DNA of 44,466 nt from a virus, in IMG/VR virus record IMGVR_UViG_3300009551_000026, positions 1 through 44,466 of that record; one strand, written 5' to 3'. Within the stretch, counting starts at the first letter, position 1. The number at the start of each line of letters is the position of its first letter. Of the stretch, positions 5,491-18,121 are shown piece after piece. Under the pieces are notes generated by a model. That model did no database searches, was not told where the DNA came from, and saw only the letters and a program-made list of their open reading frames with translations. The position numbers were made by a program, and so were the translations under genes.

Positions 5491-5739
5491 TCACCCCTCC
5501 CCACGGGCGAGACGGGCGCGGGCGAACAGGGTGAGAATCGCGTCTGCCTGATGCTCGCGCTGCCGCTGCCGCACATGGGCATTCGCGTCGCTGTTGCTCT
5601 CGAACTCCAACGCTAGGCCGTCGTCATAAGTGAGCGTGTGGGTTGCCTCGCCATCGACAAGCCGTGTCAGGCGGATCGTATAGCTCCACGGATATTCGGT
5701 CTGGCAGATCGTGTCCGCGATTTGGTCGCGCGTCGGCAT
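5491..5739 (-). CDS. Hypothetical small protein
   Basis: An 82-residue protein from ATG 5739 (MPTRDQIADTI). It begins with a helix and continues with strands (YTIRLTRLVDGEATHTLTY, LALEFESNSDA), ending in a charged helix. It follows the upstream gene after one base and so forms a two-gene leftward unit with it. No domain recognised. It is convergent with the RHH gene, with no terminator visible in the four-base gap. Confidence 0.7.
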   Translation of the reverse strand: MPTRDQIADTICQTEYPWSYTIRLTRLVDGEATHTLTYDDGLALEFESNSDANAHVRQRQREHQADAILTLFARARLARGEG

Positions 5740-5740
5740 C

Positions 5741-6061
5741 TCAGTCACGGCTATCCTCCTTGGTGAGAGCTTCATGCGTCCGATCGCGAGCCGCCTTTGC
5801 CTCGATCCACATCGAATGCATGTCGCCGTGGAGAGTGATCAGGTGGAAGTCGCTCCGTGCCTGGGTCAACGCCTCCCGCATCTCCCCCACCCGCGCGGAG
5901 GCGGCGTCCCGCTCCCCCTCCAACTCCGCAATCTTCGCGTGGAGGGCGTCGATGGCGTCGGCGGCTTCGTCCCCGTCCTGATTGCGACGGCGGCCCATAT
6001 CGATCGGCTTCCGCAGCCGCTCCACAAGCGCTCGCAACCCGCTGATTTCCACCGGCGTCAC
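5741..6061 (-). CDS. Coiled-coil protein, GTG start
   Basis: A 106-residue protein. GTG 6061 is chosen because GGAGG lies six bases upstream. Residues about 40-70 (IAELEGERDAASARVGEMREALTQAR) are a clear coiled coil preceded by a GRRRNQDGDEAADAIDAL segment. The layout resembles the small coiled-coil proteins frequent in phage early operons. Its promoter must lie in the 104-bp region shared with the rightward operon starting at 6166. Function unknown. Confidence 0.7.
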   Translation of the reverse strand: MTPVEISGLRALVERLRKPIDMGRRRNQDGDEAADAIDALHAKIAELEGERDAASARVGEMREALTQARSDFHLITLHGDMHSMWIEAKAARDRTHEALTKEDSRD

Positions 6062-6088
6062 AACGCACCTCCGCGATGAAAATAGCCC

Positions 6089-6116
6089 TTGCTTTCGTAC
6101 ACGAAAGGCGTACAAA
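6089..6116 (+). promoter_or_regulatory. Putative promoter with palindromic operator for the 6166-6944 operon
   Basis: CTTTCGT-AC-ACGAAAG at 6092-6107 is an inverted repeat with perfect 7-bp arms in the 104-bp region between divergent genes. A possible rightward promoter is TTGCTT (6089-6094), 16 bp, TACAAA (6111-6116), which would place the palindrome between -35 and -10. It is the natural binding site for the HTH protein at the end of the operon. The -35/-10 assignment is weak; the palindrome itself is clear. Confidence 0.5.
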
Positions 6117-6165
6117 CAATCTCAGCGGATGGAACAGCCAACCGCGATAGGTACGGAGACCTTAG

Positions 6166-6429
6166 ATGACCCATCCGCTGCTCGACCCGCACAGCTTCTC
6201 GCACTTCGGCGGGGATGTCAGCAAGGCGACCCAGGCGAAGTATGACGCTCGCAAGATCGAGAACGCCAAGAACCTCGCCGCATTTGAGGTTGGTATGCTG
6301 GTGAAGCCCTTCAAGGGCTACGATCGCAACATCGGCCCGAACGGACAGATGATCACCGCCATCAATGGTGATCATATCACGCTCTCGAACGGTCGCACCT
6401 ACGCCGCTGGCTTCCTCACGATCGCCTGA
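6166..6429 (+). CDS. Unknown 87-residue protein, first gene of HTH-ended operon (anti-CRISPR candidate)
   Basis: A small protein with an N-terminal helical half (KATQAKYDARKIENAKNLA) and a beta-rich C-terminal half resembling an SH3/KOW-like barrel (VGMLVKPFKGYDRN, ITAINGDHITLSNGRTY). GGAG precedes ATG 6166. It is transcribed against the flanking operons with two other short genes, the last coding for an HTH regulator. That layout is typical of acr-aca loci, but I see no similarity to a named anti-CRISPR. Function is inferred from context only. Confidence 0.75.
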   Translation: MTHPLLDPHSFSHFGGDVSKATQAKYDARKIENAKNLAAFEVGMLVKPFKGYDRNIGPNGQMITAINGDHITLSNGRTYAAGFLTIA

Positions 6430-6441
6430 AAGGATTCCGTG

Positions 6442-6621
6442 ATGACCTATTTTGAGCAACTCGCCTCGATCACCGCTGAAATCGTCCCGGTCCTGAAGCC
6501 CGAGTTCGACGCCGAGCGCTACGCCGCCGGGATGCTCGACGAGGCCGACGAGGACGAGACCAACTTCGAAGTTCGCGGCCTCCACACCAAGACCGGCGCT
6601 CCGCACGCCTTCTCGATCTGA
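6442..6621 (+). CDS. Unknown 59-residue acidic protein (anti-CRISPR candidate)
   Basis: An acidic protein with an N-terminal helix (MTYFEQLASITAEIV) and the motif MLDEADEDETNFEVRG, then a short strand region. ATG 6442 is chosen over GTG 6439 because AAAGGA is better placed. Strong negative charge and small size are common to DNA-mimic and anti-CRISPR proteins. It lies between the first gene and the HTH gene and overlaps the HTH start by one base (TGATG), so the two are co-translated. Function unproven. Confidence 0.7.
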   Translation: MTYFEQLASITAEIVPVLKPEFDAERYAAGMLDEADEDETNFEVRGLHTKTGAPHAFSI

Positions 6622-6944
6622 TGAAGACGCTCTACGCAGCTTGCATCGCACGCCTCGGGCTATCCCAGTCTGAGGCCGCTGATCTGCATGGCGTTCGCCA
6701 CGACACGGTGAAGTCGTGGTGCGCAGGCCGCCGCACGGTTCCAGACAACGCGTGGTCGGACCTGCGTGTATACGAGGCGCAGATCGTTGACCGCTCGGAA
6801 GCAATCCGCGAGGCATGGGAAGATGCTGGCGAGATCCGCGATATTGAAGCGACGGTTGCTGATCATGCTGGGCTGATGGCGCTCGCGGATTTCTTGCTGA
6901 GCACGGATGATGTGCCACCTGTGTCGGTGGAGCTGACGACCTGA
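6621..6944 (+). CDS. HTH regulator resembling YdiL/Aca2-type proteins
   Basis: A 107-residue protein. Residues about 13-42 (LGLSQSEAADLHGV, then DTVKSWCAGRRTVPDNAW) form a helix-turn-helix with the 'W-x-x-G-x-R-x-V-P' ending seen in YdiL/DUF1870 proteins and in the anti-CRISPR-associated repressor Aca2. The rest is helical and acidic and could dimerise. As the last gene of a short operon behind a palindrome it probably autoregulates the operon. Assignment to Aca2 itself is inference from fold and context. It converges with the methyltransferase gene, 12 bp away. Confidence 0.75.
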   Translation: MKTLYAACIARLGLSQSEAADLHGVRHDTVKSWCAGRRTVPDNAWSDLRVYEAQIVDRSEAIREAWEDAGEIRDIEATVADHAGLMALADFLLSTDDVPPVSVELTT

Positions 6945-6956
6945 TTTCGACCGCGT

Positions 6957-7688
6957 TCATGCCACGGCTCCAAAAAGCTGGCGTTGGCGCTGAGCGGCTT
7001 CGATGCGGCGGCAGGCGGCGTCGAAATAGATCGGCTCGCATTCGATGCCGATGAACGGATGTCCTGCCAGCACTGCCGCGATGCCGGTCGAGCCCGCACC
7101 CATGTAGGGATCAAGTATCAGCCCACCTTGAGGCACACGGGCCTGTGTGATGGTCCATGACATGAGATCGACGGGCTTCTGGGTCGGATGATGGCGAGGT
7201 ACTGCCGCCTGACCGACGCGCTCATTTCTCGTCTCGTATCCTCCAGCGATGCAAAGCCCATTCCACAGGTGGCGAAAAATACGGAGCGGGCGTTCGCGCT
7301 GATTGAGCCACGCAGCCTCACCATCGCCCTGAAGACGAACCATGCCGTTCGGTACTTTATCCCAGCACAGCCATGAACCTTCGGGGAGCCGATCTGCGAA
7401 CTTGTGGGCGCCCCAAAGCGCCACGATATCTGCCATCGACAAGAGCGGCGATGGATCGAACGGCTTGTCATCGCCTTGGATCGCCGGATACGCCCGATCA
7501 GTAGGATGATATTTGCCGCCTCCTGGAAGTTTGGAAATTCGGCGCTTGCCCATTTTGACCTTCAAGGCCTGACCATAAGGCGGGTCGCTGATAATCGCAG
7601 CCGGACGCGGCAGATCGTCCACCTCCTCCCATTCGGCGAGATAGAGCGTCGCATTGCCGATCTGCACAAACCTCTCCCCCGGCGTCAT
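6957..7688 (-). CDS. DNA adenine-N6 / cytosine-N4 methyltransferase
   Basis: A 243-residue protein of the N6_N4 methyltransferase class. The catalytic motif DPPY is at 35-38 and the AdoMet motif [10 protein letters not shown] at about 193-202, with [10 protein letters not shown] following. The order (catalytic motif first) is that of the beta group, which includes many solitary phage enzymes. No restriction endonuclease gene is beside it, so it is an orphan enzyme, probably protecting phage DNA. It is joined to the NADAR gene by an ATGA overlap and is the last gene of the early leftward operon. The target sequence cannot be read from here. Confidence 0.93.
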
Positions 7689-8218
7689 TGGGCTGACCTC
7701 GCGCGGAGGGTGGAGCGAACCTCCATCCAGAGCTTGCCGAGCATGTTCTGCCCGTCGCGGTTCGGACCCCAGCCCCAGAAGTCATCGCGCCAGCTATTTT
7801 CGACCAGTTCACGCTCGCCGGTCGCGAGGAGTTTGCGACGGACATATTCATGCTGATCGGCCTTCAGGCGCAGGATCTCCCGCATCTCGCCGACCTTGAT
7901 GTCGTCCCAATAATCGATCTGATGAACCTTGTTGCCCTGCGCAATCCGAAAGGCGTCATGCGCAGATGCCGCGTTCATGATCTTCTGAGCCAACGCATCG
8001 GCGGAGTAGCCTCCGGCGAGGAAGAAGCGGCGCCAGTGATACATGTGCTCGCTGGTCATGAAGGTGTATGGGCCCCAGCGCACGTTGAACGCCGAGAAAT
8101 TCGAGAGGACGTAGAAGTCCTGCTCATAGAAGCACACGCGCTCCGGTGTATCGAGGCCATGGCATTCGATGTCGGACATAGGGGTTTCCAATCCCACGAG
8201 GTTCTCGGACGGGGTCAT
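7685..8218 (-). CDS. NADAR domain protein (YbiA/DUF1768 family)
   Basis: A 177-residue protein matching the NADAR pattern: [15 protein letters not shown] near the start, [12 protein letters not shown] in the first third, and [18 protein letters not shown] with [10 protein letters not shown] at the end. The family includes the riboflavin-pathway N-glycosidase YbiA and enzymes that remove ADP-ribose from guanine in DNA, reversing DarT-type toxins. In a phage operon with a methyltransferase and nuclease genes, a counter-defence or NAD-related role is plausible. Start 8218 overlaps the upstream stop; ATG 8179 is an alternative that would lose 13 residues. Confidence 0.88.
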
Positions 8219-8550
8219 GCGGGCTGATCCTCTTCGCGATGACTGAAAAATACCGTCCGGTCGGGCGCCTGGATGGTGTAGCTGTCCTGATCCGCCTCGA
8301 TACGCAGCCGCTCCGCCAAGGTCTCAGCATGCTGCCAAAGCTCATCGGGCGTGAGGGGAAAGCGCGGGTAGTTAATCAACCCGACGATGTAGCCTTCCTC
8401 CTCGCCGTTCCGATAAATGAAGTTCGTCGGCGTGCAGGTGACGCAGAAGCCGATCTCATCGCAGTATGTGCGGCATTGATCCTCGATGTCAGCCGCGCGC
8501 CCGGCGATGAAGATGCTGATTGGGTAGCTGATAGCTTCGCGCCGGATCAT
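8215..8550 (-). CDS. Conserved-type hypothetical protein
   Basis: A 111-residue protein (MIRREAISYPISIFIAG start). It appears to be an alpha/beta fold: strand ISIFIAG, helix ADIEDQCRTYCDEI, strand FCVTCTP, then GYIVGLINYPRFP, helix and final strand. It has conserved-looking motifs (VGLINYPRFP, SYTIQAPDRTVFF) that I have seen in small phage proteins but cannot name. It lies between NADAR and PAPS-reductase-like genes with ATGA overlaps, so it may act with them. Confidence 0.75.
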   Translation of the reverse strand: MIRREAISYPISIFIAGRAADIEDQCRTYCDEIGFCVTCTPTNFIYRNGEEEGYIVGLINYPRFPLTPDELWQHAETLAERLRIEADQDSYTIQAPDRTVFFSHREEDQPA

Positions 8551-9464
8551 GCTGCTTCTCCGCACCAGGTGCCGCACTCAGCGTCCATCTCAGGATCGTT
8601 GTCGAACAGGCCGCCGGCGAACAGATCGGGCTGCGTGCGGACATCACGGATCAGTTCGGCATAGCTGTATTCGGTGACGAACTGCCCCTTACCGATGACC
8701 TCCATGTCCGCCCACCACTGCAGCGTGCCCGGCTTGGTGCGCTCAATCTCCCACAGCTTGGCCCGCGCCTTAAGCATGCAGCCATCGCAGTTGCCCTCGA
8801 AGCCGAAGAGGCCCAGATCGAAGCCTTGGGGGAGCAGCATAGCCAGGGCGTTGCCGCCGAGCGTCCGACAGGCCTCGACCACCTCGCTGATCGAAAGCTT
8901 ACCGAACCAGAAGCGGAACACGTCGCGCTGGCTGGCCTTTGCGTCATCCAGCGGCAGAACGTTGGTCCACGCCTCCTTGTTCGGCTTGCGTGATTTCGCG
9001 ACCCGGTGCTGCTCATCATGGCGCAGGCCGACGATGTTAACCCAGTTCTTATAGCCGCGCGCCTGCATGAACCACTTCATGACGCGCACCTTCAACTCGG
9101 CGGTGCACCAGCGCATGACTGCGTTCGGGGTATATTGCTTATCCCGGATCAGTGCCTCGAAAGGCTCACCAGCGCGGGATGCCGTCTCGAACGTCACTTC
9201 CTCGAAGCGCTCTTCGATCGGCCGCGAAACCTTGCGCGAACGGAATTCGACCCAGTGGATAGGCACGCCCCAGCGCGCCTGACACTCATGAACGAAGCGA
9301 AGGGTTTCCTCGCGCTCCTTGCCGGTGTTGGCAAAGACGACGTGAACGTCAGGCGGGAATGCGCCGCCATGCGCGTCCAGCATCATCTTGAGCATGTAGG
9401 CCGACGTGCGTCCGCCCGAGAAGCTGATCAGCGCCGGGCCCTGAATGAAATACGGGTTTGTCAC
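8547..9464 (-). CDS. PAPS reductase-like ATP pyrophosphatase (DndC/IbrA-like)
   Basis: A 305-residue protein from GTG 9464, chosen for GGGGAG seven bases upstream. It has the PP-loop SFSGGRTS at about 14-21, VVFANTGKEREET, RWCTAEL with LKVRVMKWF, VGLRHDEQHR, and a late cysteine pair CDGCMLKARAKL. This is the adenine-alpha-hydrolase fold of PAPS reductases, DndC (DNA phosphorothioation) and IbrA-type phage proteins. True sulfate reduction is unlikely without partner genes; sulfur insertion or another adenylation reaction is possible. The cysteine pair may bind a metal or Fe-S centre. It is in the same operon as the methyltransferase. Confidence 0.88.
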   Translation of the reverse strand: MTNPYFIQGPALISFSGGRTSAYMLKMMLDAHGGAFPPDVHVVFANTGKEREETLRFVHECQARWGVPIHWVEFRSRKVSRPIEERFEEVTFETASRAGEPFEALIRDKQYTPNAVMRWCTAELKVRVMKWFMQARGYKNWVNIVGLRHDEQHRVAKSRKPNKEAWTNVLPLDDAKASQRDVFRFWFGKLSISEVVEACRTLGGNALAMLLPQGFDLGLFGFEGNCDGCMLKARAKLWEIERTKPGTLQWWADMEVIGKGQFVTEYSYAELIRDVRTQPDLFAGGLFDNDPEMDAECGTWCGEAA

Positions 9465-9520
9465 CGCCCCGCTCCCCAAACCACGCCCGCCGCAACCGCC
9501 GGCACCAGGATCACGCTCAT
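9461..9520 (-). CDS. 19-residue hydrophobic micropeptide
   Basis: A short frame from ATG 9520 to TGA 9461 encodes MSVILVPAVAAGVVWGAGR. It starts in an ATGA overlap with the HNH gene and ends in a GTGA overlap with the PAPS-reductase-like gene, so it bridges two genes exactly. It may be a coupling peptide that carries ribosomes to the next start, or a tiny membrane peptide. There is no homology support at this length. Confidence 0.4.
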   Translation of the reverse strand: MSVILVPAVAAGVVWGAGR

Positions 9521-10050
9521 GGCTGCACCTGTTCGACCATCGCGACATAAGGCCCCGCACTCTTCTGATCGGCAAGAGACACAAGGGTTTCCTGCTTTTT
9601 CTTAATTCTATGGAGGCGAAAGTATTCTTTTCGCGATTTGTTATTGATTTTTTCGCGCTCTTTATGGCGCTTACGCGAACAGATTAGACATCTGCGCCGT
9701 TTCCCATTTTCCACTAACGTTAGTGGGTGGCCGCATGCCGCATGCGTCTTATTATGCAATGGATGCCTGCGCCGAGCGACCATGTCTGCTGAATTGTCCG
9801 CAGCAGAGCCGATGCGTAAATGCGCCGGATTGACGCATGCAGGATTATCGCAGGAATGTAGGGCGAGTTCATAGCCTTCCATGCGGCCATGATGGGCAAT
9901 GCAACTTACCCGATGCGCATATCGAGAGAGCCCATCGATCCAGTAAGTTCCATATCCTTTATGGTTGCGATACCCTTTCCACTCCCAGCAATCATCGGGG
10001 CCGCGCTTATCGACTTTGGCCCAAAAGCGCCCATCAAGAACATAGGTCAT
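9517..10050 (-). CDS. HNH endonuclease (HNH_3 type)
   Basis: A 177-residue protein from ATG 10050 (MTYVLDGRFW), in an ATGA overlap with the upstream gene. It has DDCWEWKGYRNHKGYG near the start and the nuclease core AHRVSCIAHHG, then LHSCDNPACVNPAHLRIG, the His-Asn-His metal site typical of phage HNH_3 enzymes. The C-terminus is very basic with a second Cys set (ACGHP, RCLIC) that may bind zinc. The 3' part is clearly lower in GC than its neighbours, which suggests recent acquisition as a mobile (homing-type) endonuclease. Confidence 0.9.
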   Translation of the reverse strand: MTYVLDGRFWAKVDKRGPDDCWEWKGYRNHKGYGTYWIDGLSRYAHRVSCIAHHGRMEGYELALHSCDNPACVNPAHLRIGSAADNSADMVARRRHPLHNKTHAACGHPLTLVENGKRRRCLICSRKRHKEREKINNKSRKEYFRLHRIKKKQETLVSLADQKSAGPYVAMVEQVQP

Positions 10051-17675: not shown

Positions 17676-18121
17676 TGGCTGGCAGCGTCAACAAAGTCAT
17701 TCTCATCGGTGCGCTGGGTCGCGACCCCGAGAGTCGTTCGTTCCAGAACGGCGGGAAGGTCGTCAACCTGCGTCTTGCCACCTCCGAGACATGGAAGGAC
17801 AAGAGCACTGGCGAGAAGAAGGAGCGCACCGAATGGCATTCGGTCGCTATCTTCAATGAGGGCCTGTGTGGCGTTGCCGAGCGATTCCTCCACAAGGGCA
17901 GCAAGGTCTACATTGAAGGCCAACTCCAAACCCGGAAGTGGCAGGATCAGTCCGGCGCCGATCGCTACACGACCGAAATCGTGGTGCAGGGATTCAACGG
18001 CACCATGGTCCTTTTGGGCGATAAGCCAGGCGGGTCTTCGGACGGCGGTGATCAGCGGGAAAGCGCCGGTAATCAGCAATATTCCGGCGGGTCTGACCTC
18101 GACGACGAGGTGCCGTTCTGA
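17675..18121 (+). CDS. ssb: Single-stranded DNA-binding protein
   Basis: A 148-residue protein with the OB-fold of bacterial [53 protein letters not shown], and a Gly/Ser/Gln-rich linker. It ends in DLDDEVPF, the acidic C-terminal tip that recruits partner proteins. The start (TAATG with the upstream stop) couples it to the annealing protein. It protects single strands in replication and recombination. Confidence 0.97.

Follow-up and report, generated by a model that had tools for sequence, protein, structure and literature searches.

The operon at positions 6,089 to 6,944 of the window, by which we mean the whole 44,466-nucleotide stretch analyzed here, appears to be an acr-aca-type locus of a temperate phage, of the Aca2 type and probably repressed at both the DNA and the RNA level; we assign this reading a probability of about three in four. 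The architecture of the locus is that of acr-aca loci: a conserved operator lies in the core promoter, variable small genes of no recognized family come next, and a helix-turn-helix (HTH) gene stands last. A single control region is common to the relatives found across alphaproteobacterial phages, and the module occurs with differing cargo genes in phages and prophages of Sphingomonadales, Rhodobacterales, Acetobacteraceae/Roseomonas and Bradyrhizobium. The first-pass annotation had called the operon acr-aca-like; the locus architecture and the Aca2 fold of its last gene uphold this call, but the operator is shifted from the palindrome that had been proposed. Counting against the reading, the operator of the window itself has a mismatch in one arm, and a known acr gene lies upstream of just 3% of the Aca2-like proteins encoded by bacteria (PMC9410906).

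Organization of the operon and phage context

The three short rightward genes described earlier between leftward operons are all present (Table 1), flanked on both sides by minus-strand genes (5491-6115 and 6957-9584). The product of gene B is indeed acidic, and a GTG at 6439 offers this gene an alternative start that would yield 60 residues. A 327-residue antisense ORF spanning 6058-7041 is rejected as a high-GC shadow, since the plus-strand genes have conserved relatives, a leader and consistent spacing. The window is a 44-kb virus record that encodes an integrase, an Erf-like annealing protein, a terminase, a portal and a major head protein, which together identify it as a temperate phage. 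The closest relatives of gene C in cellular genomes belong to Sphingomonadales, and the phage probably infects a sphingomonad.

Table 1. Positions of the control elements, genes and CRISPR-matched site in the window
Feature	Position	Strand	Remarks
-35 element	6089-6094	+	TTGCTT; 16-nt spacer to -10
Palindrome proposed earlier	6092-6107		CTTTCGT-AC-ACGAAAG; overlaps operator; not conserved in relatives
Operator	6098-6112	+	TACAC-GAAAG-GCGTA; consensus TACAC-N5-GTGTA, one arm mismatch in the window
-10 element	6111-6116	+	TACAAA; overlaps right arm of operator
Leader hairpin 1	6125-6145	+	8-bp stem, loop A(N)NRG; 5' untranslated region
Leader hairpin 2	6149-6162	+	AGGU-ACGGAG-ACCU; Shine-Dalgarno GGAG (6155-6158) in loop
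Gene A	6166-6429	+	87 residues; orphan protein, candidate anti-CRISPR/anti-defense
Gene B	6442-6621	+	59 residues; acidic, candidate anti-CRISPR/anti-defense; 7-sequence family
Gene C	6621-6944	+	107 residues; Aca2/YdiL-fold HTH protein, predicted autorepressor
Protospacer	17959-17988	+	28/30 match to a type II-C spacer of Sphingomonadaceae genome G034; NGG-type flank

Directly downstream of the operon, the minus strand carries a DNA methyltransferase (N6_N4_Mtase) gene and a NADAR-domain gene (6957-8218), which may together modify DNA or nucleotides and serve against restriction. A phosphoadenosine phosphosulfate reductase-like (PP-loop) gene, matching phrog_424, is found on the same strand at 8547-9584. 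In one related locus, three tandem tRNA genes (L001:7332-7561) lie about 1 kb downstream of the operon.

Gene C is predicted to share the Aca2 fold

On its own, the gene C sequence finds no match in the PDB, gives only weak generic HTH matches in the family libraries and has no DUF1870 match in Pfam at E values up to 1. Relatives were gathered from viral and genome contigs and a profile was built from 48 members. Its best PDB match is Aca2 (7ezy, E = 5e-5), aligned over profile positions 6-116 of 133 and thus including the C-terminal domain; other Aca2 chains score at E of about 0.1. The predicted structure of gene C (pLDDT 90) consists of four helices, a strand, a helix and a strand. Foldseek aligns this model from end to end solely with SO3848, Aca2 and YdiL (TM-scores of 0.63-0.70), with E values from 1e-3 to 1e-2 for SO3848 and Aca2 and 0.28 for YdiL; for other HTH proteins, including HigA, HipB and MqsA, the match is confined to the HTH part. 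YdiL and SO3848 are the only structures reported to align with both domains of Aca2 (PMC8434428). The YdiL/Aca2-type assignment made earlier is thus borne out by profile and model alike, and the W-x-x-G-x-R-x-V-P feature on which attention had been drawn is present, with most of its positions near-invariant across the family. These comparisons support placing gene C in the Aca2/YdiL/SO3848 fold family. The sequences are only about 20-24% identical to Aca2, and since the kinship becomes visible only through a family profile and a structural model, we regard gene C as a relative of Aca2 rather than Aca2 itself.

Two NCBIfam models, NF040522 (VC1465 family; 19.2 of 70 bits) and NF046037 (carph-isopro; 24 of 38 bits), match the N-terminal HTH of gene C below their curated cut-offs. 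Such matches could mean that gene C is an ordinary early-phage regulatory gene that has conserved neighbors and takes no part in anti-defense, for instance a lysogeny regulator or a VC1465-like activator of recombination. We consider this very improbable: the family profile extends over the Aca2 C-terminal domain, the operator described below is essentially confined to this one promoter, the cargo changes between loci under a constant operator and leader, and some prophages bearing the operon are targeted by the CRISPR systems of their own hosts.

Some family members depart from the simple form. In L018, L023, L024 and L052 the HTH is fused to long C-terminal extensions (about 260-380 residues in total), and the HTH protein at L041:1117-1614 seems to end with a second, partial HTH-like stretch (VRRWCDGTRAVPGPVV).

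The operator lies between the -35 and -10 elements

The 7-bp-arm palindrome noted earlier in the promoter region does exist, but the operator conserved in about 50 relatives is offset from it by a few bases. By itself the palindrome is weak, because 7-bp-arm repeats also occur elsewhere in the same kilobase of the window and in many related loci. The operator, by contrast, is closely tied to the module: over the roughly 50 loci, perfect TACAC-N5-GTGTA sequences number 35 within 1.2 kb upstream of the HTH gene versus one in 394 kb elsewhere. That lone outside copy is apparently the operator of L018, where the ORF start was first called too early.

The operator sits between the two promoter elements in a nearly fixed arrangement. 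The -10 starts at operator position +13 in 36 of 38 loci, and the -35 is found at -9 in 25 and at -7 to -11 in all 38. Promoter scores at operator loci are far above those at random positions, and the operator lies 47-59 nt from the first gene in 31 of 33 loci, the outliers (L048 and L021) being start mis-calls. Because the operator occupies the core promoter and gene C has the predicted Aca2 fold, it is very likely that gene C represses transcription of its own operon.

In four loci, read by eye, changes in the operator accompany changes in the recognition helix. The helix VRIDTINSW (K31N) is paired with TACAA-N5-TTGTA in L084, VRRDTVASW (K31A) with TACCA..TTGTA in L085, VGLPTVKHW (R26G/D28P) with GTATC-N5-GATAC in L005, and VSFDTVKKW with TACCC-N5-GGGTA in L104.

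A conserved leader RNA precedes the first gene

Between the promoter and the first ATG lies a conserved leader with two hairpins, both of which fold in the window sequence. Hairpin 1 shows compensatory changes in six of its eight pairs, with a covariation of 0.359 compared with 0.143 ± 0.019 in shuffled alignments and at most 0.062 after sliding. Its loop is 4 or 5 nt long, and G-U pairs and an A.A mismatch occur in its stem. In 38 of 40 leaders the stem of hairpin 2 encloses the Shine-Dalgarno sequence with at least 3 bp; three of four pairs show compensatory changes as judged from a model-fitted alignment, which leans toward structure. Since the swap control is weak (9.8 observed versus 9.2 ± 0.33), support for hairpin 2 comes mainly from that alignment. 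An Rfam search with the leader returns no match; a 15.7-bit match to the flpD family inside gene C is attributed to chance.

A covariance model of the leader, which contains neither operator nor protein, was applied to genomes of 399 Sphingomonadaceae and 397 Rhodobacteraceae. It recovers new operons, three with strong scores (L084, L085 and L086) and one with a weak score (L104, 24.8 bits), each followed by the HTH gene of the family; the homologue in L086 is itself weak (14.8 bits). As the search used the leader only and still arrived at loci with the HTH gene, it confirms independently that the two belong together. Chromosomal matches below about 30 bits (L087-L103 and L105) have no HTH gene and are dismissed as chance, and four loci from the first DNA-pattern scan (L057, L065, L066 and L068) were discarded because the covariance model finds no leader in them.

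Besides DNA, Aca2 reportedly binds stem-loops in the mRNA that encodes it and so blocks translation. Together with the covariation of the leader and its place next to the Shine-Dalgarno sequence, this suggests that gene C binds the leader RNA as well, which we think fairly probable. Hairpin 1 might instead be a second DNA operator, corresponding to the IR2 of some acr-aca promoters, rather than an RNA element. Two inverted repeats are indeed known from some Aca promoters (PMC9410906), and compensatory changes would preserve a DNA palindrome equally well. However, the repeat is unlike TACAC-N5-GTGTA in sequence, and its loop is asymmetric, conserved (A...RG) and variable between 4 and 5 nt, which would break the spacing of a dyad. 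The G-U pairs and the A.A mismatch in the stem, the position within the transcribed leader and the adjoining covarying stem around the Shine-Dalgarno sequence also speak against a DNA site. We therefore hold the second-operator interpretation to be improbable and treat hairpin 1 as a probable RNA element.

The cargo is exchanged while the control region stays

BLASTP sorts the 66 proteins encoded between the operator and the HTH gene into 40 groups, which are exchanged among relatives under an unchanging operator and leader. Nearly all lack a match in NCBIfam, Pfam, PHROGs and PADLOC, the exceptions being HNH matches, which fit the L010 protein, and phrog_8020, a family of unknown function with five members in the set. 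None of the 66 is named as a known Acr by these four libraries, which hold only part of the Acrs, and four candidate cargo proteins compared with the PDB likewise reveal no known Acr. By these searches, no known Acr adjoins any family member.

Single-sequence searches with genes A and B against the PDB, viral contigs and phage records yielded nothing. Gene A has no family-library match and no convincing homologue in the 399 Sphingomonadaceae genomes. The gene B family comprises seven sequences from sphingomonads, Rhodobacter and relatives, found only beside this HTH gene. Hosts of its members have a II-C system (G713), a I-E system (G002) or no Cas1 (G183), and because they differ in CRISPR type no single target is indicated. 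The structural model of gene B (pLDDT 76) has no PDB match, the fold search giving only non-significant MreB-like matches. The module likely carries anti-defense cargo, and we judge the chance that gene A or gene B of the window inhibits CRISPR to be slightly better than even.

HigBA/GraTA-type systems share this gene order, in which a promoter containing an operator is followed by a toxin gene and then by an autorepressor of the HTH type (PMC9410906). The locus could accordingly be a type II toxin-antitoxin operon, with toxins encoded by the small upstream genes and the HTH protein serving as both antitoxin and autorepressor. We reject this highly unlikely reading on fold and cargo. Gene C matches Aca2 over its full length, and HigA, HipB and MqsA only in the HTH; the roughly 40 upstream families are unrelated to one another and none matches a toxin family in the four libraries; and in L018 nothing is encoded between the leader and the HTH gene.

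Several loci have cargo that stands out. In L018, operator and leader directly precede the HTH gene. Cargo proteins at L010:4516-5001 and L002:1773-2045 contain a PD-(D/E)XK-like motif (DFxLPxxxxxIEVKRxH), fused to HNH in L010; nucleases are unusual in an anti-CRISPR-like slot. L006, L023, L024, L038, L052 and L056, which are Bradyrhizobium and related loci, carry the same family of about 98 residues (FNRDPLxQMQxxRD...; phrog_8020, with its five members in the set), and this shared cargo contrasts with the exchange seen elsewhere. L005 has a second tandem operon upstream of the first (L005:4720-5400), with a weak leader-model match (14.7 bits). It encodes a 62-residue acidic protein and then an HTH protein with W-I-A-G-T-R-S-I-P, and its promoter has GTTCC motifs resembling those in L086; it is possibly a second aca-like family.

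Some operon-bearing prophages are matched by CRISPR spacers of their own hosts

Seven of the 20 operon hosts examined encode Cas1, compared with 41 of 299 Sphingomonadaceae at large. The spacers of these seven Cas1-positive hosts were compared with their operon-bearing regions, and four hosts have spacers against their own operon-bearing prophage, six matches in total. Three of the four have type II-C systems, a label inferred from the compact Cas9 and the form of the repeat: G034 (Cas9 ORF of 1100 residues; two self spacers, 29/30 each), G388 (Cas9 of 1044 residues; one, 31/31) and G807 (Cas9 of 1075 residues; two, 29/30 and 30/30). The fourth, G002, has a I-E system and one self spacer (31/33). 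Pfam confirms the Cas genes of these hosts, which have a full-length Cas9 or I-E genes. In the targeted regions there are phage genes for tail, tape-measure, terminase or replication functions, or ORFs that resemble tail/baseplate and integrase genes. As a control, the spacers give a single match in about 0.7 Mb of other loci, compared with six in about 0.19 Mb of the hosts' own regions. That single match falls on the window itself, and all three protospacers of G034, the window one included, have NGG directly 3'.

When a CRISPR system is functional, spacers that match a resident prophage are expected to kill the cell unless the system is inhibited, and an anti-CRISPR is thus the natural explanation for the self-targeted prophages. 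The genes adjoining the Aca2-fold regulator would be the first candidates, and the self-targeting supports the view that some of the family, at the least, carries anti-CRISPR genes. It does not identify which prophage gene blocks CRISPR, and the systems of the self-targeted hosts may be inactive.

Genes A and B of the window could also act on non-CRISPR defenses, such as restriction-modification or abortive infection, within an otherwise Aca2-like autoregulated anti-defense platform. The Bradyrhizobium (G003, G007 and G810) and Roseomonas operon hosts examined have no Cas1, a DNA methyltransferase and a NADAR gene lie immediately downstream in the window on the other strand, and the relatives of gene B reside in hosts with no CRISPR system or with differing types. 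Against this stand the six self-targeting spacers in four hosts, the match of a Cas9-system spacer with an NGG-type flank to the window, and the higher frequency of Cas1 among operon hosts. We find it rather unlikely that the window genes act in this way. For the family as a whole, CRISPR cannot explain all the cargo, given the Bradyrhizobium and Roseomonas hosts, and some of it may counter other defenses. The module is for this reason better called an anti-defense platform than a strictly anti-CRISPR one.

Relation to known systems

An acr-aca locus and an Aca2 fold are each of a known kind. The libraries searched contain neither the alphaproteobacterial branch nor its operator, leader RNA or cargo, and alphaproteobacteria are not mentioned in the survey of Aca proteins (PMC9410906). 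The nearest counterpart is Aca2 of Pectobacterium phage ZF40 (acrIF8-aca2; PDB 7B5J, 7VJO-7VJQ and 8W35), together with Aca2 7EZY. The likeness extends over the full length, with an HTH and a beta-alpha-beta C-terminal fold, and includes the placement of the HTH gene last in a short operon after small genes of no recognized family and an inverted repeat that overlaps the core promoter. The window family differs from ZF40 Aca2 in its low sequence identity, unrelated cargo and alphaproteobacterial spread, and in its conserved leader with a covarying hairpin and a Shine-Dalgarno hairpin, absent from Rfam. YdiL (1S4K) and SO3848 (2OX6) have the same fold as gene C, but their genes are described as lying outside prophages and without acr neighbors (PMC8434428), whereas the window family belongs to phage operons whose cargo is exchanged. 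The short Aca families, Aca10 (PDB 7XI5) among them, share the role of acr-operon autorepressor and similarity in the HTH only; they have no counterpart of the C-terminal domain of gene C. The resemblance of the VC1465 and carph-isopro models is to part of the gene C family and is limited to the N-terminal HTH.

Proposed mechanism and implications

In the mechanism we propose, the products of genes A and B would be made in a burst as the phage DNA enters the cell. They would be small proteins for host takeover, and their most likely role would be to inhibit CRISPR-Cas or another defense. Gene C, the predicted Aca2-fold repressor, would be translated from the same mRNA. As its product accumulates, it would bind TACAC-N5-GTGTA between the -35 and -10 elements and switch transcription off. 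It would probably also bind leader hairpin 1, beside the hairpin that holds the Shine-Dalgarno sequence, and so block translation of the mRNA already made.

More broadly, the family may represent an undescribed alphaproteobacterial branch of the Aca2 fold that acts on both DNA and RNA, a single HTH protein reading an operator and a leader hairpin unrelated to it in sequence. The branch would mark about 40 uncharacterized anti-CRISPR or anti-defense families, including inhibitors of the sphingomonad II-C Cas9 with an NGG-like PAM. We see the odds for this larger proposal as evenly balanced. The operator, the leader model (R1) and the HTH profile provide a search handle for anti-defense genes in alphaproteobacteria, and they already supply about 40 uncharacterized candidate families, several of them in prophages targeted by their hosts' own CRISPR. 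If the HTH protein does bind the leader hairpin, RNA control would not be confined to one phage but would be general to Aca2-fold proteins, and natural covariation could be used to derive its specificity.
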